Assembly: GCA_937927915.1 (NCBI GenBank)
Contig: CALGKB010000003.1
Location: 1 to 64,000, forward strand
DNA length: 64,000 nt
From: an uncultured Pseudanabaenaceae cyanobacterium
Lineage (GTDB): Bacteria; Cyanobacteriota; Cyanobacteriia; Pseudanabaenales; Pseudanabaenaceae
Direction of reading: 5' to 3'
In this document: positions 1 to 21,370 of the stretch, in pieces
How positions within the stretch are numbered: position 1 is the stretch's first letter
Layout: every line of letters begins with the position of its first letter
The notes under the pieces: model-generated
What the model saw: only the letters and a program-made list of their open reading frames with translations
The model's database searches: none
What the model was told of the DNA's origin: nothing
Translations under genes and position numbers: made by a program

Positions 1-605
1 GGGGGAGGAGGGGGTGCTGCCTCCTTCTTGGGGGGGGTGGGCTTAGGAACAGGTTTACGGAGGGTAGGTGGCTCTGGCTTTTTCAGAGGGGGGGTAGGGC
101 GCTGCGGTTCACTGGGGACAGTGGCTGCCTCCAGTTTTTTCGGGGTCGGTTGGGGTTTGACGGGGGGTTCTGGCTTTTTCAGGGGGGGCTGGGGTTTGAC
201 GGGGGGCGATACGGGTTCCTCCCCTGGGGGTGGGGCAACAACTTCTGCCTTGGGCATTGTCGGTTTAGCCTGCAGGATAGGGGGTTCTACTTTGGGAGTA
301 GGGGGGGTAGGCTGCGGTTTACTGGGGGGAGCCACCAGTTTTACCTCTGGCTTGGAAACAGTGACAATCTTGGTTTTAGGGGTTTCTTCTTTTTCTTTTA
401 CTTCCTTGCTGCGGCTGGGCTTGGGGGCGTTTTTGAGGGGACGATTACCCGCCCTGACAAAGGCTCTTACCTTTTCTGCTTCTTCTTCTGTGATCGTGCT
501 ACTATGACTTTTGAGGGGGATGCCGTGCTCTTCGCAAATAGCCATTACATCTTTGTTGTCCAGATGCAACTCCCTCGCTAAATCATATATTCTTACTCTG
601 CTCAT
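1..605 (-). CDS. infB: Translation initiation factor IF-2, N-terminal part (runs off left edge)
   Basis: The reverse strand reads from ATG at 605 without a stop to the window edge. The first residues, [19 protein letters not shown], and the following [16 protein letters not shown] are the IF2_N helix-turn-helix-like module at the start of cyanobacterial IF-2, the GTPase that brings initiator tRNA to the 30S subunit. About residue 60 onward is a long Pro/Lys/Glu-rich linker with repeated [11 protein letters not shown]-type units, typical of the unstructured IF-2 N-terminal extension; the GTPase domain lies beyond the window. The linker makes the plus strand very G-rich. Divergent from clpB. 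The identification rests on the N-terminal module and linker only. Confidence 0.88.
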
Positions 606-645
606 GGGGTCGGGTAATCAAGTCCAGGATTTAATACTTTAGCCT

Positions 646-651
646 ATTATA
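646..651 (-). promoter_or_regulatory. Candidate -10 box upstream of infB
   Basis: The reverse strand reads TATAAT here, about 41 bases upstream of the infB start codon at 605. No good -35 hexamer stands 17 bases further up, so this is a -10 element only. In many bacteria infB is also read from an upstream nusA operon; here the upstream neighbour is the divergent clpB, so a local promoter is needed. Confidence 0.45.
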
Positions 652-680
652 GAAGCAAGTTGTAGCCTATCTGGGCAAAA

Positions 681-709
681 TTGTCTAATTGCAAGGGCTA
701 CGCTATCAT
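681..709 (+). promoter_or_regulatory. Candidate sigma-70-type promoter of clpB
   Basis: TTGTCT at 681-686 and TATCAT at 704-709 are separated by 17 bases, a good housekeeping-type promoter, with the clpB ATG at 733. I see no CIRCE-like inverted repeat between them, so HrcA control is not indicated by sequence. Confidence 0.5.
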
Positions 710-732
710 GCCTGGGAGTATCAACGAGTTCT

Positions 733-3318
733 ATGCAGCCAACTGACCCTAATCAATTTACAGACAAGGCTTGGGAAGCGATCGTGAAATCCCAAGAGGT
801 GGCGCGCCGCTTTCAACACCAGGAGCTGGAGGTGGAACACTTAGCTATGGCACTCCTGGAGCAAGAGGGTCTGACACAACAAATCTTGGCAGGTATTTCT
901 CTAGCAAGGTTACAACGGAATTTGGAGGAGTTTTTGCGTGCCCAACCCCGCATTTCCCATCCCAGGGAGTTATATCTAGGGCGCTATTTGAATGCCTGCC
1001 TCGATCGGGCTGCCGACCTGCGGGAGGAGTGGCAGGACACCTACATTTCTGTGGAGCATCTATGGTTAGCAATTGCGGAAGACGATCGGGTGGGCAAGCG
1101 GTTGCTACGGCAGGCAAGTTTGGACCGCAAGAAGCTAGAGACGATCGTGCAGTCTTTACGGGGGGCGCAGAAGGTAGTAGATGCCAATCCGGAGTCTAAG
1201 TATGCCGCCCTGGAAAAGTACAGTGTGGATTTGACTGCTTTAGCGCGGGAAGGGAAGTTAGACCCGGTGATCGGTAGGGATGAGGAAGTCAGACGGGTAA
1301 TTCAGGTCTTGTCCCGCCGCACAAAAAACAACCCTGTGCTGATCGGAGAACCGGGGGTGGGCAAGACGGCAATTATTGAGGGTTTGGCGCAGCGGATTGT
1401 GCGGGGAGATGTACCAGAATCTCTGCAGGAACGGCGCTTGGTGAGTTTGGATTTGGGGGCACTGCTGGCAGGGACAAAGTACAGGGGGGAGTTTGAAGAA
1501 CGACTGAAATCCGTCCTCAAAGAAGTGACAAGTTCCCTCGGTCAGATCATTCTCTTCATCGATGAACTACATACAGTGGTGGGAGCGGGGGCGGGGGCAG
1601 GCTCCGTCGATGCCAGTAATCTCTTAAAACCCATGTTAGCCCGGGGAGAACTACGCTGCATTGGGGCGACAACGCTAGATGAGTATCGCAAGTACATTGA
1701 AAAAGACCCGGCTTTGGAAAGACGTTTTCAGCAGATATTGGTAGACCAACCGACAGTGGAAGATACTATCTCTATTCTGCGGGGGTTGAAAGAAAGATAC
1801 GAAGTGCATCACGGCGTCAAAATTTCTGATTCCGCTTTGATCAGCGCCGCTACCCTTTCCCATCGCTATATCACTGACCGATTTCTGCCTGACAAAGCCA
1901 TTGACCTGGTGGATGAAGCAGCTGCCAAGCTCAAGATGGAGATCACTTCCAAGCCCATTGAGTTAGACGAACTCGATCGCAAGATCATGCAGTTGGAGAT
2001 GGAAAAGTTGTCCTTACAAAGGGAGGAGAATCTCACAGGCAAAGCAGCACAGGTAACAGCAGAGCGCATCGATCGCATTCAGAGGGAAATTCACAAGCTC
2101 AAACAAAAACAGACCTACCTGCAGGAGTTATGGCGGACGGAGAAAGAAGCGATCGATTTGGTCAAGGCACTAAAAGCAGAAATTGAACAGACCAAGCGCC
2201 AGATCGAGCAGGCGGAGAGGGAATTTGACCTCAATTTGGCAGCGGAGTTGAAATACAACAAGCTAACCGAACTAGAAAAACAACTGGACGAGGCAGAGTT
2301 ACAGATAGAGAGAACCCGATCGGAGGGTACATCCCTATTTCGGGAGCAGGTGACAGAAAATGACATTGCCGAAATTGTTGCCCGCTGGACAGGTATTCCT
2401 GTCAACAGTCTGTTGGAATCGGAGCGGCAGAAGTTATTGCGCTTAGAGGCACATCTCCATGAACGGGTGGTAGGACAGGAAGAGGCAGTGGCATCCGTAG
2501 CGGCAGCCATTAGACGAGCAAGAGCAGGGATGCAAGACCCCAACAAACCGATTGGTTCTTTTCTCTTTTTGGGACCGACGGGGGTGGGCAAGACAGAGTT
2601 AGCCAGGGCACTAGCACACTTTTTATTCAACTCCGACCAGGCTATGATTCGCTTAGATATGTCGGAGTACATGGAAAAACACACAGTTTCCCGTTTGATT
2701 GGGGCACCGCCCGGCTATGTGGGTTATGAAGAGGGGGGGCAATTTTCCGAGGCAGTTCGTCGTCGACCCTACTCTGTCGTTTTGTTTGATGAAATTGAAA
2801 AGGCACATCCCGACGTGTTTAACATTCTCCTGCAGGTACTAGATGACGGCAGAATTACGGACAGTCAAGGGCGCTTAGTGGACTGCAAAAACACGATTAT
2901 CATTATGACCAGCAATATCGGCAGTGACTTTGTGCTGGAGGGGGAGGGAGAAGAACAACGGCAGAAAGTGATCAATGCCCTACAAAGGAGTTTTCGTCCG
3001 GAGTTTCTCAACCGCATTGATGAAATTGTCATCTTCCATGCTCTCCGCCAAGAGGAACTGCGCCAAATTGTCAAACTACAACTAAAACGCATCACGGAAC
3101 GCTTGGCAGAACAAAAATTAGCGATTGCCCTTACCCCTGAAGCAGAGGAATTCATCATGGCAAAAGGCTACAATCCTGCCTTTGGTGCCCGTCCCCTCAA
3201 ACGCGCCATGCAAAAGCTGATCGAAAATCCCATTGCCGATGCCATCTTGGCAGGTAAATACAGTGCCGGCGAAACGATCAAAATTAGACTGGCAGACAAT
3301 CAGTTGGTTTTGGAATGA
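733..3318 (+). CDS. clpB: ATP-dependent chaperone ClpB (disaggregase)
   Basis: ClpB is a hexameric AAA+ disaggregase that pulls proteins out of aggregates together with DnaK/DnaJ/GrpE. At 861 residues it has the usual length. The Clp_N repeats cover about 1-145; the first AAA+ domain has Walker A GEPGVGKT near residue 204 and a Walker B LFIDELH; the Glu/Lys/Gln-rich M-domain coiled coil (about 410-530), which separates ClpB from ClpA/ClpC, is present; the second AAA+ domain has GPTGVGKT near 614, [13 protein letters not shown] and the C-terminal D2-small domain. The start [17 protein letters not shown] matches cyanobacterial ClpB1 better than ClpB2. It overlaps menD by four bases (ATGA), suggesting translational coupling, although the two functions are unrelated. 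Confidence 0.96.
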
Positions 3319-5039
3319 CCGATCGGAATTTGGCGTGGGGAAAAGTCATAGCCCAGTCCCTGTGGCAGGCGGGCGTTAGACAGGTATGTATTTCCCCTGG
3401 TTCCCGTTCTACCCCTCTAGTGTTAGGTCTGTACTTGTACCAAAAGTTGGAAATATATGTGCAGATAGATGAACGATCGGCAAGTTTCTTTGCTTTGGGT
3501 ATGGCAAAAGCACAACAAAGACCAGTAGCTTTAGTCTGTACCTCTGGTTCCGCGGTCAGTCATTATTTTCCCGCTGTGATTGAAGCCTACTATAGTCAAG
3601 TACCCCTGGTGATTCTCTCCGCCGATCGCCCCCCTGAACTGCGACACTGTGGCGCCCAACAAACAATTGATCAACTACATCTATTTGGGCACTATGTCCG
3701 CCAATTTGTGGAAGTGGGATTGCCCACAGAAAACCATCGGTATTTAGCCACCATTGTACAAGCTACTGTCAGTCGGGCTAAGCAACCTATAGCAGGGGCA
3801 GTGCATCTGAATTTTGCCTTTAGGGAACCCCTCTCCCCCCCGCAGTTAGACAGCAAATTTAGTGATAGTCCCCCCCTCTGGCAATGTCTAGCCACCAAAA
3901 CACAGCTGGCAAATTTAGATTGCTTACAGTCACTATTGGCGCACAAACGGCGGGGAGTTGTGGTAGTGGGAGTGAACAAATATCCGCTGTCAGAGGCACA
4001 CTTAGTCCATCAACTGGCACAAACTTTGGGTTATCCCCTCCTTGTGGAAGCAACGGGAATGCCCCGTCAAAATGTTATCAGCCACTACGACAGTTTTCTG
4101 CGCTCCCCCCCTTTAGCTACTAAATTAGCACCGCAAGTCGTCATCAGGTTGGGGGATATGCCCACCTCCAAAACCTACCGCCAGTGGCTAGAACAGCACC
4201 CCCACTGTCAACAGATCACGATCGGTGGCTACGACAACACAAACCCTACCCACAGTAACAATTATCAAATTCCTGTCGCTATAGGAGACTTTTGTCGACA
4301 GTTATTAGCTCACCTGCAGCCTCAGGAACCCGATGAAGAATGGCAACAGTTATGGCAACGGGCAAATCACCTTAGCCAACTAGTTTTAGATGCATGGATG
4401 GCAACTATTGACTATGCCTTTGAGGGGAAGATTTACTATGAGCTAGCTCCCCTTCTCCCCGACAATACAATCATCTACATTGGCAACAGCACACCCATTC
4501 GAGATTTAGATACTTACTTCCACAATTCCCAGCGGGTTACAGTTTTTTCCAATCGGGGAACTAACGGTATTGATGGTATGATTTCCAGCGCTATGGGGGT
4601 AGCCAAAGTAGCAACAAACCCCGTCTTACTTATCTGCGGTGACCTCACCTTTTGCCATGATATAAATGGTCTTCTCCTGGGGAAACTCAATGACATCAAT
4701 CTAACCATTTTACTCATAGACAATAACGGCGGCGCTATCTTTGAGATGTTGCCTATCTCCCAATTTGATCCCCCCTTTAGCCAACTGTTTCTAACACCGA
4801 TCGGGCTAGATTTCGCCCAGATTGTTACAGGTTATGGCGCCCATTGGCAAGAGGTTAGCAGTATTTCTCACCTCACCAGTGCTATTAAAGAGAGTCTGCC
4901 CGCCCCAGGGGTGAAAGTAATTAGCATTAAGACCGATCGGGAACGGGATTGGCAACAGCGCCACAACTTTTGGCAAAGAGTAATCCAAACGATAGAAACA
5001 AATTTATTGCTCTGCGGCGACGGCGAAAAGTTAAACTAA
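3315..5039 (+). CDS. menD: 2-succinyl-5-enolpyruvyl-6-hydroxy-3-cyclohexene-1-carboxylate synthase MenD
   Basis: MenD is a thiamine-diphosphate enzyme that joins isochorismate and 2-oxoglutarate in phylloquinone (vitamin K1, the photosystem I A1 cofactor) synthesis. The 574 residues show the ThDP fold: N-terminal PYR domain with [10 protein letters not shown] and the [12 protein letters not shown] segment, a central domain, and a C-terminal PP domain with [10 protein letters not shown] and the cofactor motif GDLTFCHD...LLIDNNGG. Length and motif order match the family. The ATG overlaps the clpB stop. Another gene of the same pathway, menB, lies at 23.2 kb, so the men genes are scattered. Confidence 0.95.
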
Positions 5040-6345: not shown

Positions 6346-6822
6346 ATGGCTGAACTAACTCTGCAAGACGTTTTACGGGAACTGCGCGCTGACATCCGCC
6401 AAGTGGGGCAGGAAATCAAAGAAGAGCTGCGGCAGGAAATCAGTGATTTCAAAGGGGAGGTCAGACAGGAAATAGACGCTCTCAAGGCAAATTTTGCCGC
6501 TATCCGTGCCGATGTCGATCAACTCAAAGTTGATGTGGCTTCCTTGCGTACTGATGTCGATCAACTCAAAGTTGATGTGGCTTCCTTGCGTACTGATGTG
6601 GATCAACTCAAAGTTGATGTGGCTGTTCTCAAAGTTAATGTGGACAACCTGAAAGGGCAGGTACAAGACCTGGCAAAGGAATTCAGCCTGGCGCAAAAAT
6701 GGCAGGATAGGACATGGGATGTGGTTAAATGGGTAGGGGGTATCAGTGCAGGTTTGGCAGTAAGTGCCTCGATCGCTATTTTGGTGACCTTCATTCGCGT
6801 GGCAATTCTTGCAGGAGGATAG
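6346..6822 (+). CDS. Membrane-anchored coiled-coil protein with 14-residue repeats, function unknown
   Basis: A 158-residue protein with no enzyme motif. Residues about 5-120 form a continuous coiled coil; its centre consists of 14-residue units VDQLKVDVASLRTD repeated two to three times and then degenerating. A single hydrophobic helix near 125-155 (WVGGISAGLAVSASIAILVTF) probably anchors it in the membrane with the coiled coil outside the bilayer. It resembles short tail-anchored coiled-coil proteins (DUF1640/t-SNARE-like in architecture), but composition-driven similarity is unreliable. It ends three bases before the chemoreceptor gene, whose ribosome-binding site lies inside its last codons, so the two are probably co-translated. 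Confidence 0.8.
   Translation: MAELTLQDVLRELRADIRQVGQEIKEELRQEISDFKGEVRQEIDALKANFAAIRADVDQLKVDVASLRTDVDQLKVDVASLRTDVDQLKVDVAVLKVNVDNLKGQVQDLAKEFSLAQKWQDRTWDVVKWVGGISAGLAVSASIAILVTFIRVAILAGG
6511..6636 (+). repeat. Three tandem 42-bp repeats inside the coiled-coil gene
   Basis: Units start at 6511, 6553 and 6595. The first two are identical over 42 bases; the third differs by one base in its first third and diverges in its last 12 bases. Each unit encodes 14 residues, i.e. two heptads, so gain or loss of a unit keeps both frame and coiled-coil register. Near-identity including third codon positions points to recent duplication by slippage. Confidence 0.92.
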
Positions 6823-6825
6823 TTA

Positions 6826-9288
6826 ATGCTAGTAGAAGCGGGAAAACAAGAACAGAGTATTGCCTTGCTCAGGCTAGCTAAGAAGCCCAAGTTGCAGCGC
6901 TTCTGGCGAGATTTGAGTTTGCGGTGGAAGATTACTATTTCTCTGTGGTTGGCTGCTGCCGTACCTGTACTCATAGTGACGCAATTTAATGTGCAGTATT
7001 CCCGCACTAACTACATTAAAAACCTAACGCAGAGTCTAGAACAAAAGGGGGCATTCTTTACGTCGGACTTTGTGCTGTGGTCCCTGGAAGAGGCAAAACC
7101 AGAAGCGGAACAAATTGCTAAAACCGTCGAAGCTCAGGGAGTCAGTCTGACCAACGTACAGGAGCTAGCCCCTCTGCTGCAACTGACTAGCAATGTAGAG
7201 CCAGAATCAATTAAAAATTTTAAGTTAATTGTGAATAGGCAAGGACAGGTGGTAGCGGGAGTGGCACAGACTATAGATGATAGGTTTGTAGATAATCCCC
7301 CCCTGGTTGCCAAAGATCAAGTCTATCGTCCCGCCTATCGTGTCCTTAGTATTCCCAGTGGTGTTCCTTTGGGCGATTTAGAGATACTTAGGGCTACTCT
7401 AACTACGGGTCAACCCCAGAGCGGTATGGAGTTGGTAAGGAGTAGCATCCTGCAAAAGCTAGGGTTAGCCGAGCAAGCCCGGATTACCCCCCGTCCCCAA
7501 AAGATAGCGGGTTTGAAGCCAGAGGAAGCGCCTTTTCCTGAGGGGAAATTTGACGTGGAAAACGGCAAGACTGGTCTGGTGAGCATTGCCACTCATCCTA
7601 TTCAGCAGGGTAATAGTGTAGTGGGGGTGGTGGTGATTGGCTCTCTCCTCAATCGCAATTACGGTATTGTGGATGTTTTCCAAGCTAAAAATGATGTGCC
7701 GGTGGCTACTATTTTTGCCCAAGATTTTCGCGTCAACACTTCTATCCCCTACATAGACCCTAGTACAGGTAAACCTGATGGTTCCAGAGCGATCGGTACA
7801 AGGGTATCCCGGGAGGTGGCAGAGAAGGTCTTGCTAGAGGGTAAGAAATTTGTGGGGGAAACCAATATTGTAGGGCAGTTCTATCTCACTTACTATGAAC
7901 CTTTGTTCAACCACAAGCAGCAGCCAGTCGGTATATCTTTTATCGGTACTTCCCGGCGAGAAGTTGATGCAGCTTTGCGTACAGCCCTGCTTCAAAGTTA
8001 TGGAATTGGTGTAATTACTTTGATTGCCTTGGCGTTTTTAGGAGCCTATGTGGCTAACTCCATTGTTACCCCCATTCAACAACTAGCTAGTTTTGCCAGT
8101 TTGGCGGGCAAGGGTCAGTTACGGAAACTAGATACCGATCGGGCAGATGAGATTGGGCAGTTGGCAGAGAGCATCAACCAGATGGTGGAGAACATTGAAA
8201 ATTCCATTGCTGCCCAATTAGAGGAAGTACAACGATCGATGCAACTCAAGGAAGAGGCAGAGCGATTAGCCCAGGAGCAAAGACAACAGAAGGAGTTGCT
8301 ACAAAAACGGGCACTGGAGTTGTTGTTGGAAGTAGACCCCGTAAGTAGAGGGGATTTGACGGTACGGGCAAAGGTGACAGAGGATGAGCTGGGCACGATC
8401 GCTGACGCCTACAACTCTTTGATTCGCAGTTTGCGGGAGTTGGTATTGGGTGTAAAGGAATCAGCCACGACAGTTACCCAGAGCACGATCGCTAACGACC
8501 AAATGGTAAAGACGGTGGCAACGGGGGCAAAACAGCAGGTAGAGGCACTGCAGGAGGCACTCCAGCAGGTAGCAGTGATGGCAGAATCCCTCCAGGAGGT
8601 GGAGCAGCGCGCCCAGATTGCCCAAAGCCAGGTGAATGAAGCAGTAGCAGTGGTGGCAGAGGGGGACAAAGTGATGACCCGCACGGTGGCAGAAATTAAC
8701 GTGGCAAGGGAAAAGGTGACCAAGGCAGCGGAAAAAGTACAACTCCTAGAAAGTGCCTCCCAAAAGATTGCCAAGGTGGTGAAGTTGATTGGTAACTTTG
8801 CTGCCCAGACAAACCTCTTGGCATTGAATGCTTCCATTGAGGCAGCACGGGCAGGGGAAGAGGGGGAGAGCTTCAAGGTGGTAGCGGATGAAGTGCGGGC
8901 TTTGGCACAACGATCGACAGAAGCGACACGGGAAATTCGCCGCCTGTTGGAGGAAATTCAGGGGCAAGTGAATGAGGTAGTCAGTGCCATCCAGGAAGGA
9001 ACAGAGCAGGTAGCAGAGAGTACGGAGCTGATTGAACAGGCAAGGCAGAGGCTGCAAGCCATCAACGCAGTGAGCGCTGAGGTCAACCAACTGATTAACG
9101 ACATTGCCCAGGCCTCCCATTTACAGCTGCTTAACTCCGATCGGGTAAAACAGGTGATGACCCAGGTGGCAACGATCGCAACGGACAACTCCCAGCAGGC
9201 GGAAACAGTAGCCCGCACCTTTGATGAATTACTAGCGCTAGCGCAACGTTTGCAGCAGCAGGTAGGTAGGTTTAAGGTAAATTCTTAA
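6826..9288 (+). CDS. Methyl-accepting chemotaxis protein (phototaxis/pilus-type chemoreceptor)
   Basis: An 820-residue transmembrane receptor. A first membrane helix lies near residues 30-50 ([17 protein letters not shown]), followed by a roughly 330-residue periplasmic region that looks like a Cache-type sensor, a second helix near 385-410, a HAMP domain ([14 protein letters not shown] ... [14 protein letters not shown]), a second HAMP-like/coiled-coil stretch and a C-terminal MCP signalling domain. The hairpin tip reads [20 protein letters not shown], the CheA/CheW contact site. The start ATG follows GGAGG by eight bases. In cyanobacteria such receptors usually steer type IV pilus motility; no CheA/CheW/CheY genes are adjacent, so its array partner must be elsewhere. 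The ligand cannot be told from the sequence. Confidence 0.9.
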
Positions 9289-9339: not shown

Positions 9340-11664
9340 ATGTCCTGCCGTTCTCCGACCATGCCCGTAATTTTAGACCATGTTGTGGTTGGCATCTTTG
9401 TTGCCCAGGGGCAGGAAGGTGTCCTCTATGTAGTGGAGGCTAACAAAAAGTGGTGGGAACTGGTGGGGAGAGAACCCTTATCTTTGCCCCAGCCCTTGAC
9501 AGCGGTTATAGCTAACGAAGGTTTAATCAGAGCTTGCCAGAATTGTTGGCAGGAGAAAAAACAAATAGTACATCACTGGCTCCATCACGATCGGGAAATC
9601 AACGTCACCCTCAGCCCAGTAGAGGATCAAATTGTAGGCACCTGCCAGGAAACCACAGCAATTCAGCCCCTCTTGATAGATTTTCTCAACAAATACCCCG
9701 ATGGCATGATTGTCCTTGACTCCCAGGGGGTAGTGCAGTTTGTCAACCCGGCGGCGGAGGAGTTATTCGATCGTCCTGCTTGGGAGATTGTGGGACAGGA
9801 ATTTGGTTTGCCCTTGGTACAAGGAGAACACACAGAGATAGAGATATTGCGCCGATCGGGGGAGATCACCCCTGCGGAGATGCGCGTTATTCAGGGCAGT
9901 TCAGGGGAATCTAAGACCTACATCATTGCGGACTTGAGGGATGCACGGGTGAGTCAAGCAGCATCGCAACAGCTCCTGAGGCGAGAAGAAGAGTTATTCA
10001 CCCTATTAACAGCGGTGAAAAAGGGGATTACACTAGGTCCTTCTGTCAGCGATTTTGTCCTATTTAATCCCGCAATGGAAGCATTCACAGGTTATTCCCA
10101 AGCAGAAGCCAACAGTAATCCCCACTTTGTGGAACTGCTTTACCCCGATCGGGAAGAAAGAGAGAGATTACTCAGTCACATTGCCCAACTGCGCTACCAA
10201 GGAGAAACTTGGGAAGATGAACTAAAAATTCGCTGTGCAGACGGCACGATCAAGCATGTCGCTGTATCTGTCTCCCTGCTGTATTATCGCGGCAAACCCA
10301 TGTATCTTTCCAGTTATACAGATATTAGTGGTCGCAAAGCTGCTGAAGCACAACTCTACTACCAAATGGAACGGGAACGTCTGTTAGGGGGAATTACTCT
10401 CCGCATTCAGAGAGAACTGGACATTGATTCTATCTTGCATACCACTGTAGCAGAAGTGCGAGAGCTATTGCAGACAGAGCGGGTAGTTATCTTTCAGTTT
10501 TTAACCGATTGGTCAGGCAGGTTTGTAGTGGAATCCGTGCAGCCTCCCTGGGAGAGCGTGCTTGCCAAACAGGTCTATGACCACTGTTTCCACGAAAAGT
10601 ATGTCGAACTGTATACCCAAGGCAGAGTCCACAGTATTAATGATGTCCTGACTGCTCCCATCCATGAATGTCATCGGGATTTGTTATTGCAATTTCAGGT
10701 GCGGGCAAACCTCGTTGTACCAATTGTCATCAGTGGCAAACTGTGGGGATTATTGATAGCCCATCACTGTTCTGCCCCCAGAGTATGGCAAACCTTTGAA
10801 ATCAATCTCTTACAACAGATCGCCAGCCACGTGGCAGTGGCATTACAACAATCTATTCTCCTGCAGACCGTTAGACAATTGAACACCAGACTGGAAGCAG
10901 AAGTGGCTGAACGCACCGCCCAACTACAGCAAAGTTTAGAACAACTGGAGCAAGCACTTTCCAAAGAAAAAGAACTGAGTGAGTTAAAATCCCATTTTGT
11001 CTCCATGGCTTCCCATGAATTTCGCACCCCTTTAGCCACCATCCAAGCAGCGAGTGATGCCCTCCTGCGTTACAGTGAACAGATGACCCCCCAGCAAAGG
11101 GAAGAGAGATTACATAAAATTCAGATAGAAGTGCGTCGCATGACAGAATTACTAGAAGACATCCTCAGCATCTCCAAGGTGGAATCGGGTACCCGCAAAC
11201 TACAACTCGCCCCCATTGATATTGCCCAGCTCTGTCAGGATATTTTAGGGGAAATCAGCGTGTTAGCCAGCGACAAACATCACATCCATTTCCAGTGTTC
11301 CCACCCGATCGGTGTAGTCTGGATTGACACCAAACTAATGCGCCAGGTGCTAGTCAACCTCCTCTCCAATGCCATCAAATATTCCCCCAGGGGCGGGAAC
11401 ATCACCCTCACTTTGCGCCAGGAACAGCAAAATATAATTATCCAGATCAAAGATGAAGGTATGGGTATTCCCCTCAAAGACCAGGAACGCATTTTTGATG
11501 CCTTTTATCGTGCCCAGAATGTGGGCAATATTGCGGGTACAGGCTTAGGTCTCTCCATTGCTAAATCGGCGGTGGAGCTGCAGGGGGGGAAACTGACTCT
11601 ACAAAGTCAAGAAGGTGTAGGCACGATCGTGACCGTCACTTTACCGATCGGGAGGGAAGTATGA
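9340..11664 (+). CDS. PAS-PAS-PAS-GAF sensor histidine kinase, candidate cyanobacteriochrome
   Basis: A 774-residue soluble kinase. A degenerate PAS-like N-terminus (1-110) and two PAS domains (about 111-215 and 216-335) precede a GAF domain (345-500), a HisKA dimerisation domain with phospho-acceptor His559 in SHEFRTPL, and a HATPase domain with N, G1 (DEGMGIP) and G2 (GTGLGLSI) boxes. The GAF domain carries Cys444-His445 in HECHRDLLLQFQVRANLVVP and a DWSGRFVVESV segment, the positions and wording seen in bilin-binding cyanobacteriochromes; in the family this Cys attaches the chromophore. Bilin binding is therefore an inference, not shown. The downstream REC-GGDEF-EAL gene overlaps by four bases and is the obvious phosphotransfer partner. 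Confidence 0.9.
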   Translation: MSCRSPTMPVILDHVVVGIFVAQGQEGVLYVVEANKKWWELVGREPLSLPQPLTAVIANEGLIRACQNCWQEKKQIVHHWLHHDREINVTLSPVEDQIVGTCQETTAIQPLLIDFLNKYPDGMIVLDSQGVVQFVNPAAEELFDRPAWEIVGQEFGLPLVQGEHTEIEILRRSGEITPAEMRVIQGSSGESKTYIIADLRDARVSQAASQQLLRREEELFTLLTAVKKGITLGPSVSDFVLFNPAMEAFTGYSQAEANSNPHFVELLYPDREERERLLSHIAQLRYQGETWEDELKIRCADGTIKHVAVSVSLLYYRGKPMYLSSYTDISGRKAAEAQLYYQMERERLLGGITLRIQRELDIDSILHTTVAEVRELLQTERVVIFQFLTDWSGRFVVESVQPPWESVLAKQVYDHCFHEKYVELYTQGRVHSINDVLTAPIHECHRDLLLQFQVRANLVVPIVISGKLWGLLIAHHCSAPRVWQTFEINLLQQIASHVAVALQQSILLQTVRQLNTRLEAEVAERTAQLQQSLEQLEQALSKEKELSELKSHFVSMASHEFRTPLATIQAASDALLRYSEQMTPQQREERLHKIQIEVRRMTELLEDILSISKVESGTRKLQLAPIDIAQLCQDILGEISVLASDKHHIHFQCSHPIGVVWIDTKLMRQVLVNLLSNAIKYSPRGGNITLTLRQEQQNIIIQIKDEGMGIPLKDQERIFDAFYRAQNVGNIAGTGLGLSIAKSAVELQGGKLTLQSQEGVGTIVTVTLPIGREV

Positions 11665-13310
11665 CCAAGGTATTGGTAGTGGAAGACATGGATGCCCTGC
11701 GGGAAGAGATTATGGACACCCTGCGGTTTGAGGGCTACGAAGTATTGGGGGCAGAAAACGGGCTAGTGGGGGTAGCTTTGGCAACAGAGCATCTGCCGGA
11801 CATTATCTTGTGCGATGTGATGATGCCCCAGATGGATGGCTACGAGACCCTGAAAATCCTGCGGCAGCAGCCCTCAACCGCCATGATCCCCTTTATTTTT
11901 CTCACTGCCAAGGCGGACAAGCAGGATATGCGCTACGGTATGGAACTGGGGGCAGATGACTATTTGACCAAACCCTTTACGGTGGCGGAATTATTGGGGG
12001 CAATTCAGGGGCGCTTACAAAAAGCAGAATGTCTGAAGAAGTATGCCCAGGCAACGCAGCAAGATGGCAAGGACACTTCTACTTCTGTCTGTAAACGTAG
12101 TGAGTTTTATCAACTTTTGAACAGTTTAATTCCTGTGGTGGGGAACAAGGGCTTAGCTGTTTTTCTATTAGAAATAGACCAATTACCTCTCATTCACGGC
12201 GCGTTAGGCAGAGATATTGGTAGTGAACTTCTCCAAGCAGTAGGAGACAGATTACAAACTTTGTTACCTGCCGATTATCCAGCGGTGAAATTAGGGGGAG
12301 ATGAATTTGCTGTTGTGGCACCGAAGTTAGCCGATCGGCAGGCAGTACAGGAATTTGCCCAGCGTTTGATTCACCATTTGGGGCGGGGCTATATGATTTA
12401 CGGGCATGAAATTTTTATTACCACAAGTATTGGTATTTCCCTTTATCCCCACGATGCTTTGACAGCAGATGATTTATTAAGAAATGCTGACAGTGCCCTC
12501 TACTACGTCAAGCAATTAGGGCACAACCGCTATCAGTGTTTTGAACCCTCTCTGAGTGCAGAATTTGCGGAGCGCATGGCGCTAGAAAACAGTCTAAGGC
12601 AGGGTTTACAGCATGGAGAGTTTCGCCTAGTTGTGCACCCGATCGTTGATCTTGCTAAACAAGTTGTGGTGGGTTTAGAGGCACTGCTGCGCTGGCAGCA
12701 TCGCCAGATGGGAACAATTATGCCTAATCGCTTTTTGCCCTTGGCAGAGGAAACAGGTTTAATTTTAGACCTCGATCTATGGGCGTTACAGCAGGCAGAA
12801 ATTCTCTACGATCGGTGGCATTTGCCTATTTCTTTGAATATATCGGGTAAACATTTTCAGAACGAGAGCACCTTTGACAATTTAGTGAAATATGTACGCC
12901 GCTATCCCCTTTGTTTAGACATTGCCGAAAAGGTAGTTATGCAACACCCCGTCAAACTGATTACCCAGCTGCGCACTTTACAGGAAATGGGGGTAAAAAT
13001 TGCGGTGGATGATTTTGGTACAGGCTTTGCTTCCTATGAAATTCTCAAGCATTTTCCTGCCAACTATCTCAAAATTGATGGCTCCTTTGTGCGCCATTTA
13101 CCCCAGGATAAACACGCCATTGCTACTGCCCAATCGATCATTGAACTAGGGCATGAACTACATTGGCAAATTATTGCCCAGGGGATTGAAACCCAGGAAC
13201 AGTTGGAGTTGTTACACCGATTGGGTTGCCAGTACGGACAGGGCTATATTTTTACTTTGCCGATTCCCCCTGACCAATTTGAGGTATGGTTAACTAGGAG
13301 GGAGCCGTAG
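11661..13310 (+). CDS. Response regulator with REC, GGDEF and EAL domains
   Basis: A 549-residue c-di-GMP regulator. The receiver domain (1-120) has phospho-acceptor Asp52 in CDVMMP and the Lys of KPF. The diguanylate cyclase domain (about 140-300) has an intact GGDEF signature near 213, but the upstream metal-binding stretch that is normally D-x-D reads LEID. The EAL domain (about 305-545) keeps EALLRW, the Asn of LNISG, DDFGTG and the KID lysine; LExEITE is changed to LCLDIAEK and the AEGVET loop reads AQGIET. So cyclase activity is plausible while phosphodiesterase activity may be reduced. Translationally coupled (ATGA) to the kinase, which probably phosphorylates it. Confidence 0.92.
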   Translation: MTKVLVVEDMDALREEIMDTLRFEGYEVLGAENGLVGVALATEHLPDIILCDVMMPQMDGYETLKILRQQPSTAMIPFIFLTAKADKQDMRYGMELGADDYLTKPFTVAELLGAIQGRLQKAECLKKYAQATQQDGKDTSTSVCKRSEFYQLLNSLIPVVGNKGLAVFLLEIDQLPLIHGALGRDIGSELLQAVGDRLQTLLPADYPAVKLGGDEFAVVAPKLADRQAVQEFAQRLIHHLGRGYMIYGHEIFITTSIGISLYPHDALTADDLLRNADSALYYVKQLGHNRYQCFEPSLSAEFAERMALENSLRQGLQHGEFRLVVHPIVDLAKQVVVGLEALLRWQHRQMGTIMPNRFLPLAEETGLILDLDLWALQQAEILYDRWHLPISLNISGKHFQNESTFDNLVKYVRRYPLCLDIAEKVVMQHPVKLITQLRTLQEMGVKIAVDDFGTGFASYEILKHFPANYLKIDGSFVRHLPQDKHAIATAQSIIELGHELHWQIIAQGIETQEQLELLHRLGCQYGQGYIFTLPIPPDQFEVWLTRREP

Positions 13311-13318
13311 GAGGGGTT

Positions 13319-14179
13319 ATGTATTCCGTGCGGGAGGAGGCAGGGGTTTGGATTTTACAGTCCGAGAGGGACCAGGGACGGGCAACGGTTTTACCAGAGA
13401 GGGGCGGCATTCTCCTGAGCTGGGACATTGGGACAAAGGATATTCTCTACCTCGATCGGGAACGCTTTGCCAATCCTGCCCTCTCCATTCGGGGGGGTAT
13501 TCCCCTATTGTTTCCCATCTGCGGCAATCTGGTCGACGACACCTACACCTGGGGGGGACAGAGCTATAAACTCAGCCAGCATGGGTTTGCCCGCAATCTC
13601 CCCTGGACAGTTAGCCACTACAGCACCAACGATGGGGCAAGTATCACCCTCACCCTCACCCACAATGACCAGACCCTGGCGGTTTATCCCTTTCCCTTCC
13701 AGCTGGACTACACCTACATCCTGCGCCCCCAGACCCTAGAACTACGCTGCCGCCACACTAACTTGGGCAAGACTCCCCTGCCCTTTGCTACAGGCATTCA
13801 TCCCTACTTCCTGGCTCCCGATAAGACCCAGTTACATTTTCACATCCCTGCCCAGCAGTACATCCCCAAGGGGGAAAATAAGCCCCAGCCCTTCCAGGGG
13901 GAGTTGGACTTTGAGCGCCCCGAAATTGACATTGCCTTTATGCCCCTCACAGGTCAGAGAGCGACAGTGACCGATCGGGCCCGCCAGTTGGAGTTGACCA
14001 TCAGTTACGACCAGCATTACACTACCCTTATCTTTTGGACAGTGCAGGGGAAGGATTTTTACTGCCTAGAACCCTGGAGTGCTCCCCGCAACGCTCTTAA
14101 CACAGGCGAGAACTTGCTCACTCTGCCCCCTGGAGAGAGTCTGGAAACTGTGGTAACAATGGAGGTAAAATTCCTGTAA
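13319..14179 (+). CDS. Aldose 1-epimerase family protein (galactose mutarotase-like)
   Basis: A 286-residue beta-sandwich carbohydrate-binding protein of the aldose 1-epimerase superfamily. RGGIPLLFPICGNL near residue 58, the active-site-type HGFARNLPW, the His of GIHPYF and the Glu of LEPWSAPRNALNTGE near the C-terminus are the landmarks of the hexose-6-phosphate-mutarotase branch (YeaD-like) rather than classic GalM. It would speed anomer interconversion of sugars or sugar phosphates; the exact substrate is not visible. A strong GGAGGGG-type ribosome-binding site precedes ATG 13319, nine bases after the preceding gene. Confidence 0.87.
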   Translation: MYSVREEAGVWILQSERDQGRATVLPERGGILLSWDIGTKDILYLDRERFANPALSIRGGIPLLFPICGNLVDDTYTWGGQSYKLSQHGFARNLPWTVSHYSTNDGASITLTLTHNDQTLAVYPFPFQLDYTYILRPQTLELRCRHTNLGKTPLPFATGIHPYFLAPDKTQLHFHIPAQQYIPKGENKPQPFQGELDFERPEIDIAFMPLTGQRATVTDRARQLELTISYDQHYTTLIFWTVQGKDFYCLEPWSAPRNALNTGENLLTLPPGESLETVVTMEVKFL

Positions 14180-16366: not shown

Positions 16367-16630
16367 ATGATTTCGGCAGAACAAGTGGCTAATCTGATTA
16401 GAGACGCTATTCCAGGAGCACAGGTGCAGGTAGAAGACCCGCTGCAGGACGGACAGCACTTTACAGCGATCGTGGTAGCGGAGGCATTTCGGGGTTTAAC
16501 AATGATCAAACAACACAGAATGGTAAACGATGCTTTGAAAAGTTATTTAGAGGATGGCTCTATTCATGCCTTGCAACTAAAGACCTATACCCCCGAACAG
16601 TGGGCAGCAAGCCAAGTGCAGATCACCTAA
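16367..16630 (+). CDS. BolA/IbaG family protein
   Basis: The 87 residues form a complete BolA domain: N-terminal helix ISAEQVANLIRDAIPG, the beta segment with VVAEAFRG, the RMVNDALK helix and the conserved ALQLKTYTPEQW tail. BolA proteins work with monothiol glutaredoxins, sharing a [2Fe-2S] cluster in iron or redox homeostasis. A His in GQHFTAIVV may serve as the cluster ligand; the loop Cys of some BolAs is absent. The gene stands alone between tRNA-Ser and a convergent kinase gene, with which its stop overlaps by four bases. Confidence 0.9.
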   Translation: MISAEQVANLIRDAIPGAQVQVEDPLQDGQHFTAIVVAEAFRGLTMIKQHRMVNDALKSYLEDGSIHALQLKTYTPEQWAASQVQIT

Positions 16631-19600
16631 GCGTGGGAAAGGGGAAATCTGAGAGTAAAGACAGTACCATTGCCTGATTGATATTGCAGAGTGCCTTCTA
16701 GTTGTTCTACCAAGGTTAACACCAACTGCATACCCAAACTGTCACTTTCTGCGATGTCAAAATCGGGGGGTAAACCTATACCATTATCCTCTACCTGTAG
16801 GACTAAAAATTCTTCCTCCTTGGTCAGAGTGACCTTGACAATACCACTCCGATCGGGAAAGGCGTACTTAAAACAATTGGATACCAGCTCATTCGTGAGA
16901 AGACCAAGGGGGATAGCTGTTTCAAGAGGCAGAATTAAGTCATGGGCATCAATTTGTAATTCAATTCTGGTGGCATCACTGACAAAAGTCTGGAGCAGAT
17001 AATTGAGTAGTTTGTTTAGATAGTTTTGCAGGTTGATAGAACTAAAATTGCTATCACGGTAGAGTTGGTCATGTACCAATGCCATTGCCTGAATACGGGC
17101 TTGATAGTCCTCTAGTTGACTTCTAACTTCAGGGGGGGCACTACGGAACTGCATTCGTAACAGACTGGACATAATTTGTAGATTGTTTTTCACGCGGTGA
17201 TGTACTTCTTTCAGCAACACATTTTTTTCCTGTAGTTCTGTTTCCAGTTGGTGATAGAGTTCTGCCCTTTGGATTGCCATAGCTAACTGTATAGCAATTT
17301 GTTGAATTAAGTTCACTTCCCAACCTTGCCAATTTCTGGTTTGGCGATGTTCATAGATTACTAATACCCCCCAGAGTTGGTTTTGCACATAGATAGCCCC
17401 AGCTAAAGATGCCTTCAACTCTAACCCCTCTAATAGATAGAGGGACTGCCCTGTGGATGCACAAAAATCATTGACCACTAAAACATGGGGGTTATCTAAA
17501 TTGACACCGTAGGATTGGGGAGAATAGGTATCAACTTGGCATGTTTGTCCCACGATCGTTTCTAGTCCCTCTGCATAACTGTCAGCGATAAAAGTTCCAC
17601 TACTATCAGGGTTGAACTTATAGATTGCTACCCGATCGCAGTGCAAGGTGTGGCGAATTTCTGGCAGGGTGAGATTGAATATTCGGGAGAGGTCAAAGGA
17701 CTGATAAATATTCTCCATGATAGTGCGGAGCAATAGTTCTTGCTGTAGTCTCTCTTCGAGGGCACGGGTACGCTCGGCAACTATTACTTCTAATTGTTGA
17801 TTGACCTGTTGTAAGACAGCCTCTGCTTCCTTCAGCTTTGTCACATCTGTTGCCACTGATAGTATTTGTTTAGGTGCACCTTGTTTATCCCGCGCGATGA
17901 TACGGCTTCTATCAAATAACCAGCGCCAATTACCTTGCTTATCCCTGACACGATATTCCATGTCAAAAATTTCTTCGTCTGACCTATGGGGCAGATTGGC
18001 AATGGCAGTGTAAATGAGATGCCGATCGTCAGGGTGAATAAGTTCCATAATCATTTCCTCCGTCATACTCTGCATTTCAGCAGCTGTGTAACCTAGTATT
18101 TTTTCTACCGCAGGATTAACATAGACATCACGTTTTTCTATCAGATCATAGACATAGATAAACACAGAAACTGATTCCACCAGTTGCTGGAGCATTTGTT
18201 CCCGCTCTTTGACATCCTGCTCCGCTAGTTTTTGTGCAGTTATATCTAGGATGATTATGTCCCACAAGACATCCCCATTTGGTAACTGCTGGGGAGAACC
18301 CACACCACTTAGCCATTTAATTTCTTCTTCACCCAGTTTTATACGCCATTCATAATTCCACTTTTGTAATTTGTGGGAACAGTTGACGAGGGAACTATAC
18401 AGTTTTGGTAAATCTTCTGTTACTACGGTAGTCCAAAAGAGACGATCGTTAGCTATCACTTCATGGTCTGTCTTGCCAAAAATTTTCTTGCAACCAGGGC
18501 TGATATAAATTATTTCATCTGTGCCGCTGGCATGGATCACATAGCGCATGATCACCCCAGGGATGTTCATAGCTAAATGATAGAATCTCTCTTGGCTGTC
18601 CCTCAATTCTGCTTCGACCTGTTTTTGTTTTGTAATATCTACCGCTACTCCCAAGATTTGCTCCGGTCTGCCATCGCGACTTGTACTAAAAACGCTGTGT
18701 CTAGCCAGTAGCCAATACCAGTTGCCCCACCGATCGGTAATTCTAAATTCAATTGTTTTATCACTATTTACACTATCTGTGACAATATTTTGCCAGTGGT
18801 TGATCAGGTTAGGTAAGTCCTGGGGATGAATTAATCTAGTCATTAGGTTGTGGTCTAAAATATTGATATAGTCAGGGGTAAGGGAGAGGATATTAACTAG
18901 CTCTGTATTCAAAAGTTGGATTGTGTCATTCGTAGCATCATAGAGGTACATAATAGCTGAGGTTAGCTGTGTAATTTGTGCATTAAATTTTTTCTCTTTG
19001 TCTAGTTCCAACTCCGTCAACTTGCGGGTAGTGACATCCAAAACAACCATCCGCCAGATAACTGCACCGTTGGCTTGTCGTTGGGGTGTGCCAATGCCTT
19101 GAATCCATTTAATCCGACCTGTAGGGGTAGAAATTTGGTATTCCCGATTCCACTGTTTGTTTTGTTGAGCGGAATAAATAATAGACCCATGAAAGAGAGG
19201 GCGGTCTTCTGTAGAGAACAATTCCCAAAATAGTTGATTATTTTCTACGATCGCTGTGGCATCAATTTCAAAGAGGTCAATACTCTTAGGGCTGACGTAA
19301 GTAATTTTTTCTCTCCCCTGCCTATCCAAAACGTAGTGCATAATGACACCGGGTATATTCTCCACAATGTCGCGATAGCGGGCTTCGCTTTCTATTAACT
19401 GTATTTCGGTTAATTTGCGCTGCGTAATGTCCTGGGCGATACCTAACAACCTCACTACTTGACCATCTTTAACTTCACATTCTCCCTGCTCTTGAAGCCA
19501 TCTAATTTCACCACTGGGGGTAATAATTTTAGTCTCGTGATAGTAGGTCTCCTGATGCTCTATACAACGCCTAATACGCTCTTCAACCTCTGCCCTTTGT

Positions 19601-21246
19601 TCTGAGCTAACTAACTGCATATACACTGCATAACTAGGGATAATATCTTGACTCAGTCCCAGCAACTCATATTTTTGCTCGTTCCAGCTCACCCAATCAT
19701 TTATTAAATCCCATTCCCAAATACCAATTTTATGCAGCTTCAATACCAAATTTAACTTCTCCTGGTTGTGGGCAAGGGCTAGTTCTAATTCTTTACGATC
19801 GGTAATATCAATCATGACACCAAGGATTTTTTCCGCCTGTTCATCTCTATATACTGCTTTACCCTTCGTTAAAACCCAGCGCGTTTGTCCCGTTGGCAAT
19901 ACAATGCGATAGATAATATTTAGCCCTGTTCTGCTGGCAATTGCTTTTTGAAATTCTGTTTCTACCCAAGGTAAGTCTTCTGGATGTACTCTGTCTTTCC
20001 AAGTATTGTAACAGGGTTTGGCGGTTTGGGGGTCTAAGCCCATTAAGCGGAAATGGGAATCACTCCAAATGGCATCACCAGTGGCAAAACTAAATTCCCA
20101 GCCTCCTACTTCACTAAATTCTAAAGCTAACTTTAGTCGCTCTTTGTCAATCCTTAACTCTTCTAATAACTGTGCTTTCTCGATCGCTATAGCTAGTTGT
20201 TTAACTCCTACTTTAACTAAGTCTATTTCTGCCTCTGTCCATGTATAGGACTGTGCATAGAAAGATAGACATACTGCTCCCCACACTGCATTTTTGACAA
20301 CGATCGGTACAACTAAGGTCGCTATACGATATTCTGTAGCATCTAATTTCAGGTTGGTGTCGTTGATTTGCACTACTTCTTGGTTTAAGAGTCTAGCCAC
20401 TAAGTCTTTACAGTCATCAGTAATATCAAAGTCCGCCAGAGAGGGTACTCCTTCCGCCCTAGGAGATTCGGTAATGACTATCCACTGCGATCGATCGGGG
20501 AAATACTGAATTATCTTGACATAATCAACTTCTAGTAGCCTTTGTATACTGGAAACAGTGTAGTTAAAAATCTCAGTTAGACTAGAGGCTTGATACAGCA
20601 TTTGTATAAGGTTTGCCATGATTTGATTTTGCCTGACCTGTTGCAATAGTTGTAGCTCTTTCTGCTTCCGATCGCTAACATCGCGGCAAACAACTACTAC
20701 GCCTCTCACCACAGGATGGTCTAATAAGTTGATGGTAGTAGCCTCAAAATAGCGCCACTGCCCCTGGGTATCTAGCATTCTATATTCTGGTATGTTTACA
20801 GGTACGTTGGGTTGGCTCAAAGCTGTGCTAAAGGCACGCACAATAGTTTGCAAATCCTCTGCATGAATGAAACTAAAGGCACTCCGCCCTATCACTTCTT
20901 CGCTAGTAAACCCGAGTATCCTCTGCCCACAGGGACGACAATAGGTAAAACGCCCTTCCCGATCGAGTACAACTACAATATCTTTGTAATTTTCTGTAAC
21001 CGTTCGCAAAGTGATGTCTTCTATGGCAGCTTCTATAATTTGATCAAGATCAACCATCACATCCCTAACAGTCAAAGTAGTAACTGCCTCTGGTTTGGTC
21101 GCCACAACCTGCATAATTTCCCGCGGTGAAATAAACCCAATTCTTGCCCCTGACTCCACAACTTCTACATAGCAGAGATTTTGTTCATGTAATATTTTAG
21201 CAACTGCAACCAGAGACTGCTGGGGATGGACGATCGGGTCTGTCAT
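16627..21246 (-). CDS. Giant multi-PAS/GAF sensor histidine kinase with HisKA_2 output
   Basis: A 1539-residue soluble kinase. The N-terminus (1-90) looks like part of a CBS pair, followed by about seven PAS/PAC domains (roughly 88-200, 370-490, 495-615, 620-745, 755-880, 890-1015 and 1020-1145), a GAF domain between the first two and a second GAF at 1165-1310. The output is HisKA_2/HATPase: EVHHRVKNNLQIMSSLL near 1330 carries the phospho-acceptor His, and the ATPase domain ends the protein. The second GAF lacks the bilin-attaching Cys (the segment reads LYLLEGLELKASLAGAI). No response regulator is adjacent. ATG 21246 is preferred over an in-frame TTG six bases upstream. Signals sensed are unknown. 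Confidence 0.93.
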   Translation of the reverse strand: MTDPIVHPQQSLVAVAKILHEQNLCYVEVVESGARIGFISPREIMQVVATKPEAVTTLTVRDVMVDLDQIIEAAIEDITLRTVTENYKDIVVVLDREGRFTYCRPCGQRILGFTSEEVIGRSAFSFIHAEDLQTIVRAFSTALSQPNVPVNIPEYRMLDTQGQWRYFEATTINLLDHPVVRGVVVVCRDVSDRKQKELQLLQQVRQNQIMANLIQMLYQASSLTEIFNYTVSSIQRLLEVDYVKIIQYFPDRSQWIVITESPRAEGVPSLADFDITDDCKDLVARLLNQEVVQINDTNLKLDATEYRIATLVVPIVVKNAVWGAVCLSFYAQSYTWTEAEIDLVKVGVKQLAIAIEKAQLLEELRIDKERLKLALEFSEVGGWEFSFATGDAIWSDSHFRLMGLDPQTAKPCYNTWKDRVHPEDLPWVETEFQKAIASRTGLNIIYRIVLPTGQTRWVLTKGKAVYRDEQAEKILGVMIDITDRKELELALAHNQEKLNLVLKLHKIGIWEWDLINDWVSWNEQKYELLGLSQDIIPSYAVYMQLVSSEQRAEVEERIRRCIEHQETYYHETKIITPSGEIRWLQEQGECEVKDGQVVRLLGIAQDITQRKLTEIQLIESEARYRDIVENIPGVIMHYVLDRQGREKITYVSPKSIDLFEIDATAIVENNQLFWELFSTEDRPLFHGSIIYSAQQNKQWNREYQISTPTGRIKWIQGIGTPQRQANGAVIWRMVVLDVTTRKLTELELDKEKKFNAQITQLTSAIMYLYDATNDTIQLLNTELVNILSLTPDYINILDHNLMTRLIHPQDLPNLINHWQNIVTDSVNSDKTIEFRITDRWGNWYWLLARHSVFSTSRDGRPEQILGVAVDITKQKQVEAELRDSQERFYHLAMNIPGVIMRYVIHASGTDEIIYISPGCKKIFGKTDHEVIANDRLFWTTVVTEDLPKLYSSLVNCSHKLQKWNYEWRIKLGEEEIKWLSGVGSPQQLPNGDVLWDIIILDITAQKLAEQDVKEREQMLQQLVESVSVFIYVYDLIEKRDVYVNPAVEKILGYTAAEMQSMTEEMIMELIHPDDRHLIYTAIANLPHRSDEEIFDMEYRVRDKQGNWRWLFDRSRIIARDKQGAPKQILSVATDVTKLKEAEAVLQQVNQQLEVIVAERTRALEERLQQELLLRTIMENIYQSFDLSRIFNLTLPEIRHTLHCDRVAIYKFNPDSSGTFIADSYAEGLETIVGQTCQVDTYSPQSYGVNLDNPHVLVVNDFCASTGQSLYLLEGLELKASLAGAIYVQNQLWGVLVIYEHRQTRNWQGWEVNLIQQIAIQLAMAIQRAELYHQLETELQEKNVLLKEVHHRVKNNLQIMSSLLRMQFRSAPPEVRSQLEDYQARIQAMALVHDQLYRDSNFSSINLQNYLNKLLNYLLQTFVSDATRIELQIDAHDLILPLETAIPLGLLTNELVSNCFKYAFPDRSGIVKVTLTKEEEFLVLQVEDNGIGLPPDFDIAESDSLGMQLVLTLVEQLEGTLQYQSGNGTVFTLRFPLSHA

Positions 21247-21370
21247 ACACAAATAAAGTTAGTATTTGATATTATTTTGCATTTTACGGCATTGTACTGT
21301 TAAGACGTTTAATAAAAGTATAGATTCGTTCAATATTTGCTGAGGAATACTTAATTTTTTCTTATACAGT

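Follow-up and report, generated by a model that had tools for sequence, protein, structure and literature searches.

A candidate blue/green cyanobacteriochrome kinase paired with a REC-GGDEF-EAL regulator of altered catalytic residues in a Pseudanabaenaceae cyanobacterium

What is known of light control of the second messenger cyclic di-GMP (c-di-GMP) in cyanobacteria comes mainly from photoreceptors of a single chain. A 2022 review lists SesA, SesB, SesC, Cip1 and Cph2 in its Table 1, which contains no histidine kinase; the Ses proteins, from Thermosynechococcus, link a phycoviolobilin GAF domain to c-di-GMP, and the review's text describes direct links between a stimulus and the kinases that feed c-di-GMP networks as exceptionally rare (PMC8846402). 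In Anabaena PCC 7120, CdgK and CdgS are described as an adjacent, co-transcribed kinase and REC-containing c-di-GMP protein, the output of which is tuned by phosphorylation (PMC9927289). FimX of Pseudomonas, in the account given in PMC5595344, contains a REC domain and degenerate GGDEF and EAL domains; it lacks cyclase activity, its phosphodiesterase activity is weak, and it promotes the assembly of pili and binds c-di-GMP. Here we describe a compact, conserved two-component candidate for light control of c-di-GMP signalling, encoded by two overlapping genes in a 64,000-nucleotide stretch of DNA from an uncultured Pseudanabaenaceae cyanobacterium (assembly GCA_937927915.1, contig CALGKB010000003.1, positions 1 to 64,000 of the forward strand); we refer to this whole stretch as the window.

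The first gene encodes a 774-amino-acid histidine kinase with the Pfam domain order PAS-PAS-GAF-HisKA-HATPase_c (GAF E-value 1.1e-24), and the second a 549-amino-acid response regulator with Response_reg (REC), GGDEF and EAL domains. An earlier reading of the letters without database searches (the sequence-only reading) had proposed both genes and their overlap; both are real open reading frames, and they share four nucleotides, ATGA, the start codon of the regulator overlapping the stop of the kinase. The two-component residue set is complete, comprising the acceptor His and ATP-binding boxes of the kinase and the acidic pair, Asp, Thr and Lys of the receiver. No 19-residue stretch of the kinase outside the GAF core is strongly hydrophobic; since the most hydrophobic stretch sits within that core, the kinase is probably a soluble protein.

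On balance, we favour the reading that this pair derives from an ancestral light-gated phosphodiesterase system that has been re-purposed, in the window's genus, as a light-gated, non-catalytic effector resembling FimX. The GAF domain would bind phycocyanobilin at Cys444 and convert it to phycoviolobilin, with Cys416 forming a reversible second link, so that the dark state would absorb blue light and the photoproduct green light. In whichever direction it acts, the light state would set autophosphorylation of the kinase at His559 and, through it, phosphotransfer to Asp52 of the regulator. In the wider family, phosphorylation would control a phosphodiesterase whose GGDEF domain is regulatory and not a cyclase; in the window's genus, it would alter binding by the regulator of c-di-GMP (or GTP), of a partner protein, or of both, on the model of FimX. 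We hold only tentatively the more specific view that, within one genus, a blue/green two-component system whose relatives control a phosphodiesterase has lost both catalytic activities while the protein stayed under selection, so that phosphorylation driven by light acts on a dead GGDEF-EAL protein as a nucleotide-binding or protein-contact switch (a photo-FimX). If true, the pair would exemplify a circuit from light to a messenger enzyme turning into one from light to an adaptor.

The GAF domain of the kinase

Light sensing by the kinase GAF domain is well supported. The sequence-only reading had proposed a candidate bilin-binding cyanobacteriochrome because of a Cys-His pair and a DWSG segment. 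Both are present, as Cys444-His445 and as DWSG from residue 390, and the proposal stands as to the class of the domain; it left out the type, having overlooked a second cysteine, Cys416, in the motif D414-H-C416-F. The DXCF cysteine lies 28 residues from the canonical cysteine without gaps, equal to the spacing in the alignment with 3vv4 (DPCF and ECH), which we take to be TePixJ. The domain matches solved cyanobacteriochromes well beyond chance (E-values of 1.3e-46 for 6oap and 6.1e-35 for 3vv4). Consistent with this, a structure model built from 36 sequences has a mean predicted local distance difference test score (pLDDT) of 89.4, and the matches listed for it are cyanobacteriochromes and phytochromes with Z scores of 23-25, including 6xhh, 6oaq and TePixJ 4glq. 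GAF domains with both cysteines are DXCF cyanobacteriochromes, which, as described in PMC11284453, typically convert phycocyanobilin to phycoviolobilin and have blue- and green-absorbing states. We conclude that the kinase GAF domain is a candidate DXCF dual-cysteine cyanobacteriochrome of the predicted blue/green type. The window's genome also encodes one heme oxygenase and three members of the ferredoxin-dependent bilin reductase family, so a supply of bilin is expected.

To place the domain among its relatives, we rely on a careful tree of 42 rows hand-picked from 130, with a GAF domain of a large neighbouring kinase in the window as outgroup. The window GAF falls in a clade of 36 of the 42 rows (support 100/100) together with TePixJ, RcaE and 6oap; its exact placement relative to TePixJ within that clade is not settled. 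The red/green (WXDXXL) domains of AnPixJ, NpR6012g4 and Slr1393g3 lie outside the clade, as does the outgroup, a GAF domain that lacks the cysteines. A quick tree of all 130 rows grouped the window GAF in the same way, and put five Cys-less GAF domains inside the cyanobacteriochrome set on a branch 2.68 long, a placement that is unsure; the claim is based on the 42-row tree. The sequence-only reading had named a grouping with non-bilin GAF domains as the outcome that would sink its proposal. Both trees came out in favour of the proposal, the domain grouping with cyanobacteriochrome GAF domains.

We searched 38 relatives with the kinase (39 genomes including the window's own) and compared the 19 with a clear ortholog. 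Both the DXCF and the canonical cysteine, with the Cys-His pair and DXCF context, are present in the window and in 16 of these relatives. A scan of named genomes with one peptide pattern, of which the best 80 loci were retained, found both cysteines in the best GAF domain of 77, in a sample that leans to the window's lineage. The remaining three relatives lack one or both cysteines and nonetheless keep the gene pair, which counts against our reading: the DXCF cysteine is absent in G006 (letter-and-number labels are our own handles for genomes and loci), and in G020 and G022 (L043, L045) both cysteines are replaced together (DSNF and SY). The kinase is therefore evidently able to work without light, and the G020 and G022 orthologs are, to judge by their residues, a natural bilin-free version of it. 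Persistence of these Cys-less kinases, and the two PAS domains ahead of the GAF domain, which are well conserved in the genus, would fit a kinase whose real sensors are the PAS domains and whose GAF domain is structural or binds another ligand. We consider this improbable for the window, given that the cysteines and their context are so widely kept, that constraint on the GAF domain equals that on the kinase core, and that it falls among characterised bilin GAF domains.

The GGDEF and EAL domains of the regulator

The regulator is most likely non-catalytic in the window's genus, because its EAL domain lacks two key glutamates and its GGDEF domain lacks the GTP pocket. The residues expected of a catalytic EAL domain (E, N, E, D, D, K, E, Q) are not all present, the regulator reading E340, N393, D420, D450, D451, K471, Q507 and Q527. 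The columns of residues 420 and 507 hold Glu in all 15 outside-genus orthologs that cover them and in 40 of 40 paralogs (55/55), and hold Asp and Gln in all three genus members (the window's genome, G000, with G001 and G002). The paralogs were the best-scoring matches listed after the orthologs and hence not a random sample. When HMMER aligns the domain with MorA, DosP and its top match, D420 and Q507 again fall on these glutamates. Both glutamates are kept in two further EAL proteins of the window's genome that we aligned, and, by eye, in a third (L066). Two short deletions around the EAL core further set the genus apart from the A3 relatives. In TBD1265, as reported in PMC12943098, activity was abolished when the Glu equivalent to residue 507, which opens the ExxE motif, was changed to Ala. 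Phosphodiesterase activity thus looks to have been lost only in the window's genus, the EAL domain being intact and the GGDEF domain damaged elsewhere in the family.

It might be argued that the regulator has remained a working c-di-GMP phosphodiesterase under light control, with Asp420 and Gln507 doing no more than lowering or tuning its rate. The motif EALLRW, Asn393, Asp450-Asp451, Lys471 and Gln527 are intact, and the EAL domains of orthologs from other genera look competent as enzymes. However, both changed glutamates are invariant in the 55 orthologs and paralogs, one of them is the residue whose replacement abolished TBD1265 activity, and the genus carries the two deletions; we regard continued phosphodiesterase activity as unlikely.

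The GGDEF domain gives a different picture of letters and pocket. Its signature, G212-GDEF, is intact. PMC12943098 gives D327, F331, K332, N335, D344 and G368 as key residues of PleD, and with identical spacing these correspond to E171, L175, P176, H179, S188 and G212 of the window regulator. The metal-binding Asp of the cyclase and the guanine-binding Asn and Asp (D327, N335 and D344) are thus absent, replaced by E171, H179 and S188, and a domain with intact GGDEF letters has lost its metal and GTP pocket. Within the genus the signature itself varies, from GGDEF to GGEEF (G002) and GEEVF (G001). All 16 orthologs from outside the genus retain the pocket residues (positions 171, 179 and 188) and have Q or R in place of the first G of the signature. 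Cyclase activity therefore looks to have been lost by different routes inside and outside the genus. We rejected the equation of GGDEF letters with cyclase activity, since the pocket residues are replaced and the signature is broken in G001 and in the outside-genus orthologs. For the same reasons a light-gated diguanylate cyclase, which the KLGGDEF of the window and the GGEEF of G002 would suggest, is very improbable: five of the PleD positions hold other residues in the window, and the signature fails in close and distant relatives alike.

The receiver keeps its key residues. E8, D9, D52, T82 and K104 are invariant in 19 of 19 regulators (the window's and those of 18 relatives), confirming Asp52, which the sequence-only reading had named as the target of phosphotransfer, as the receiver Asp. 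The same reading had described a c-di-GMP regulator with a receiver domain; the REC-GGDEF-EAL composition holds, and the role as an enzyme is doubtful, key residues being altered in both GGDEF and EAL. Within the genus, the GGDEF domain has pairwise ratios of nonsynonymous to synonymous substitution rates (dN/dS) of 0.05-0.07, the EAL domain 0.06-0.09 and the receiver 0.01-0.05. Such low values indicate purifying selection and disfavour decay of the GGDEF and EAL domains. A structure model of the regulator, for which 5 sequences served as input, reached a pLDDT of 60.8 and a predicted template modelling score of 0.34, a quality too low for use.

Several points weigh against a non-catalytic effector. 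The window regulator keeps the GGDEF signature to the letter, along with most of the EAL residues named above; as the change of Glu420 to Asp is mild and may leave some metal binding, residual activity is possible. Degenerate GGDEF domains are frequent in tandem proteins, the full D-N-D:GGDEF set occurring in only 6 of the 40 paralogs, so the loss in GGDEF is in itself unremarkable and it is the change in EAL that stands out. The dN/dS values are rough, since synonymous divergence is near or past saturation. Binding of c-di-GMP or any other ligand, like the contact with a partner, is something that the regulator would be expected to do under the FimX-like reading. The relatives offer natural controls for that reading, in the form of a version with an intact EAL domain, versions from which both cysteines have been lost, and the catalytically altered version of the genus.

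The gene pair and its surroundings

The regulator gene adjoins the kinase gene in 18 of the 19 relatives; in G008 no receiver match was found beside the kinase, after which only about 1 kb of contig remains. Named carriers of the pair are Pseudanabaena sp. SR411, P. mucicola FACHB-723 and Pseudanabaena ULC068bin1, and beyond the family this gene order recurs at two loci, L104 and G028. At L104, positions 36-3755 hold another PAS/GAF kinase near the pair, with a HisKA-HATPase region 48% identical to that of the window kinase and a receiver match (57%) directly after it. A tblastn search of a plasmid collection with the kinase returned generic kinase matches only, with 0 records covering 80% of the query. 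Our searches of openly licensed papers turned up no description of the pair. Promoter-like sites (15, against 7.4 +/- 2.6 in shuffled sequences) and terminator-like sites (10, against 8.7 +/- 3.4) were not used as evidence.

Features of the locus (positions in the window)
Feature	Position	Strand	Basis
Chemoreceptor: Cache, HAMP, MCPsignal	6826-9288	+	Pfam
Cyanobacteriochrome-type histidine kinase gene	9340-11664	+	Open reading frame list, Pfam
First PAS, residues 116-164 matched	9685-9831	+	Pfam PAS_8
Second PAS, residues 239-330	10054-10329	+	Pfam PAS_9/PAS
GAF domain, residues 361-502	10420-10845	+	Pfam, solved relatives, structure model
DXCF second-cysteine motif	10579-10590	+	Aligned to DPCF of 3vv4
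Cys416 codon	10585-10587	+	DXCF motif
Canonical bilin-binding Cys444-His445	10669-10674	+	Aligned to C-H of 3vv4 and 6oap
HisKA	10987-11190	+	Pfam
Phospho-acceptor His559 codon, in SHEFRTP	11014-11016	+	Ortholog alignment
HATPase_c, residues 663-770; N, F and GTGLG boxes	11326-11649	+	Pfam, translation
Response regulator gene, REC-GGDEF-EAL	11661-13310	+	Open reading frame list, Pfam
Receiver Asp52	11814-11816	+	Alignment of 19 regulators
GGDEF domain, signature at residues 212-216	12072-12530	+	Alignment, PleD residue list
EAL domain	12588-13256	+	Pfam, alignments
Asp420 codon, in place of Glu	12918-12920	+	Ortholog/paralog alignment
Gln507 codon, in place of Glu	13179-13181	+	Ortholog/paralog alignment

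The sequence-only reading had also drawn in the chemoreceptor just upstream and suggested that the block links light quality to motility or aggregation. The chemoreceptor is real, and the link has little support. A light-to-motility unit could be argued from its position on the same strand, 51 nucleotides before the kinase, an arrangement kept in G002, and from the four T2SSE-family ATPases (type IV pilus type) of the genome. However, the chemoreceptor adjoins the pair in only one of the 19 relatives (G002) and is not beside it in G001 of the same genus, its sensor is a Cache domain and it has no GAF domain; we think such a unit quite improbable, and rejected the chemoreceptor as part of a conserved unit. 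The unit to be explained is therefore the kinase and the regulator. Among the eleven ComFB-type matches and the T2SSE-family proteins of the genome, we found no link to the pair. Elsewhere in the genome (G000:C4:292450-295686; L195, L197 and others), a frame of about 1494 amino acids has several cyanobacteriochrome-like GAF domains, some of the red/green type by eye, and a chemoreceptor-like C-terminus; for motility directed by light, it makes a stronger candidate than the Cache receptor of the window.

A coiled-coil frame with repeated DVDQLKVDVASLRT-like units (6346-6822, + strand) ends 3 nucleotides before the chemoreceptor gene, and an aldose 1-epimerase gene (13319-14179, + strand), adjacent in G002 too, begins 8 nucleotides after the regulator gene; both could be co-transcribed with the block. 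On the minus strand, 16627-21252 encodes a very large PAS-rich kinase of the HisKA_2/HWE type, 1541 amino acids long when read from a TTG codon. By eye, neither of its two GAF domains has the bilin cysteines; the second was the tree outgroup.

Comparison with known systems

In its photoreceptor, the window pair is like TePixJ and other DXCF cyanobacteriochromes, sharing the D-X-C-F motif and the Cys-His pair, their spacing and the fold (Z 23.4 to 4glq). The closest solved relative of the GAF domain among the matches listed is the 'dual sensor histidine kinase' of 6oap and 6oaq (46-48% identity; Z 24.3-24.6), which has DQYF in place of DXCF and thus lacks the second cysteine; its title names a green-light absorbing Pg state. 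The Ses proteins tie a phycoviolobilin GAF domain to c-di-GMP, as the window pair is predicted to do. In TePixJ the GAF domain belongs to a chemoreceptor, and each Ses protein unites sensor and output in one chain, whereas in the window a histidine kinase would signal to a separate receiver protein.

In its layout, the pair resembles CdgK and CdgS as described, a neighbouring cyanobacterial kinase and REC-containing c-di-GMP protein. It differs in that CdgK is a membrane hybrid kinase that acts through a phosphorelay, with its signal unknown, and CdgS an active cyclase without an EAL domain. In its output, FimX is the nearest model. FimX has an extra PAS domain, and we know of no photoreceptor kinase as its partner. 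It belongs to a different lineage and is described as binding c-di-GMP and PilB, binding that for the window regulator is only proposed; the kind of output we propose for the window regulator is nevertheless that of FimX.

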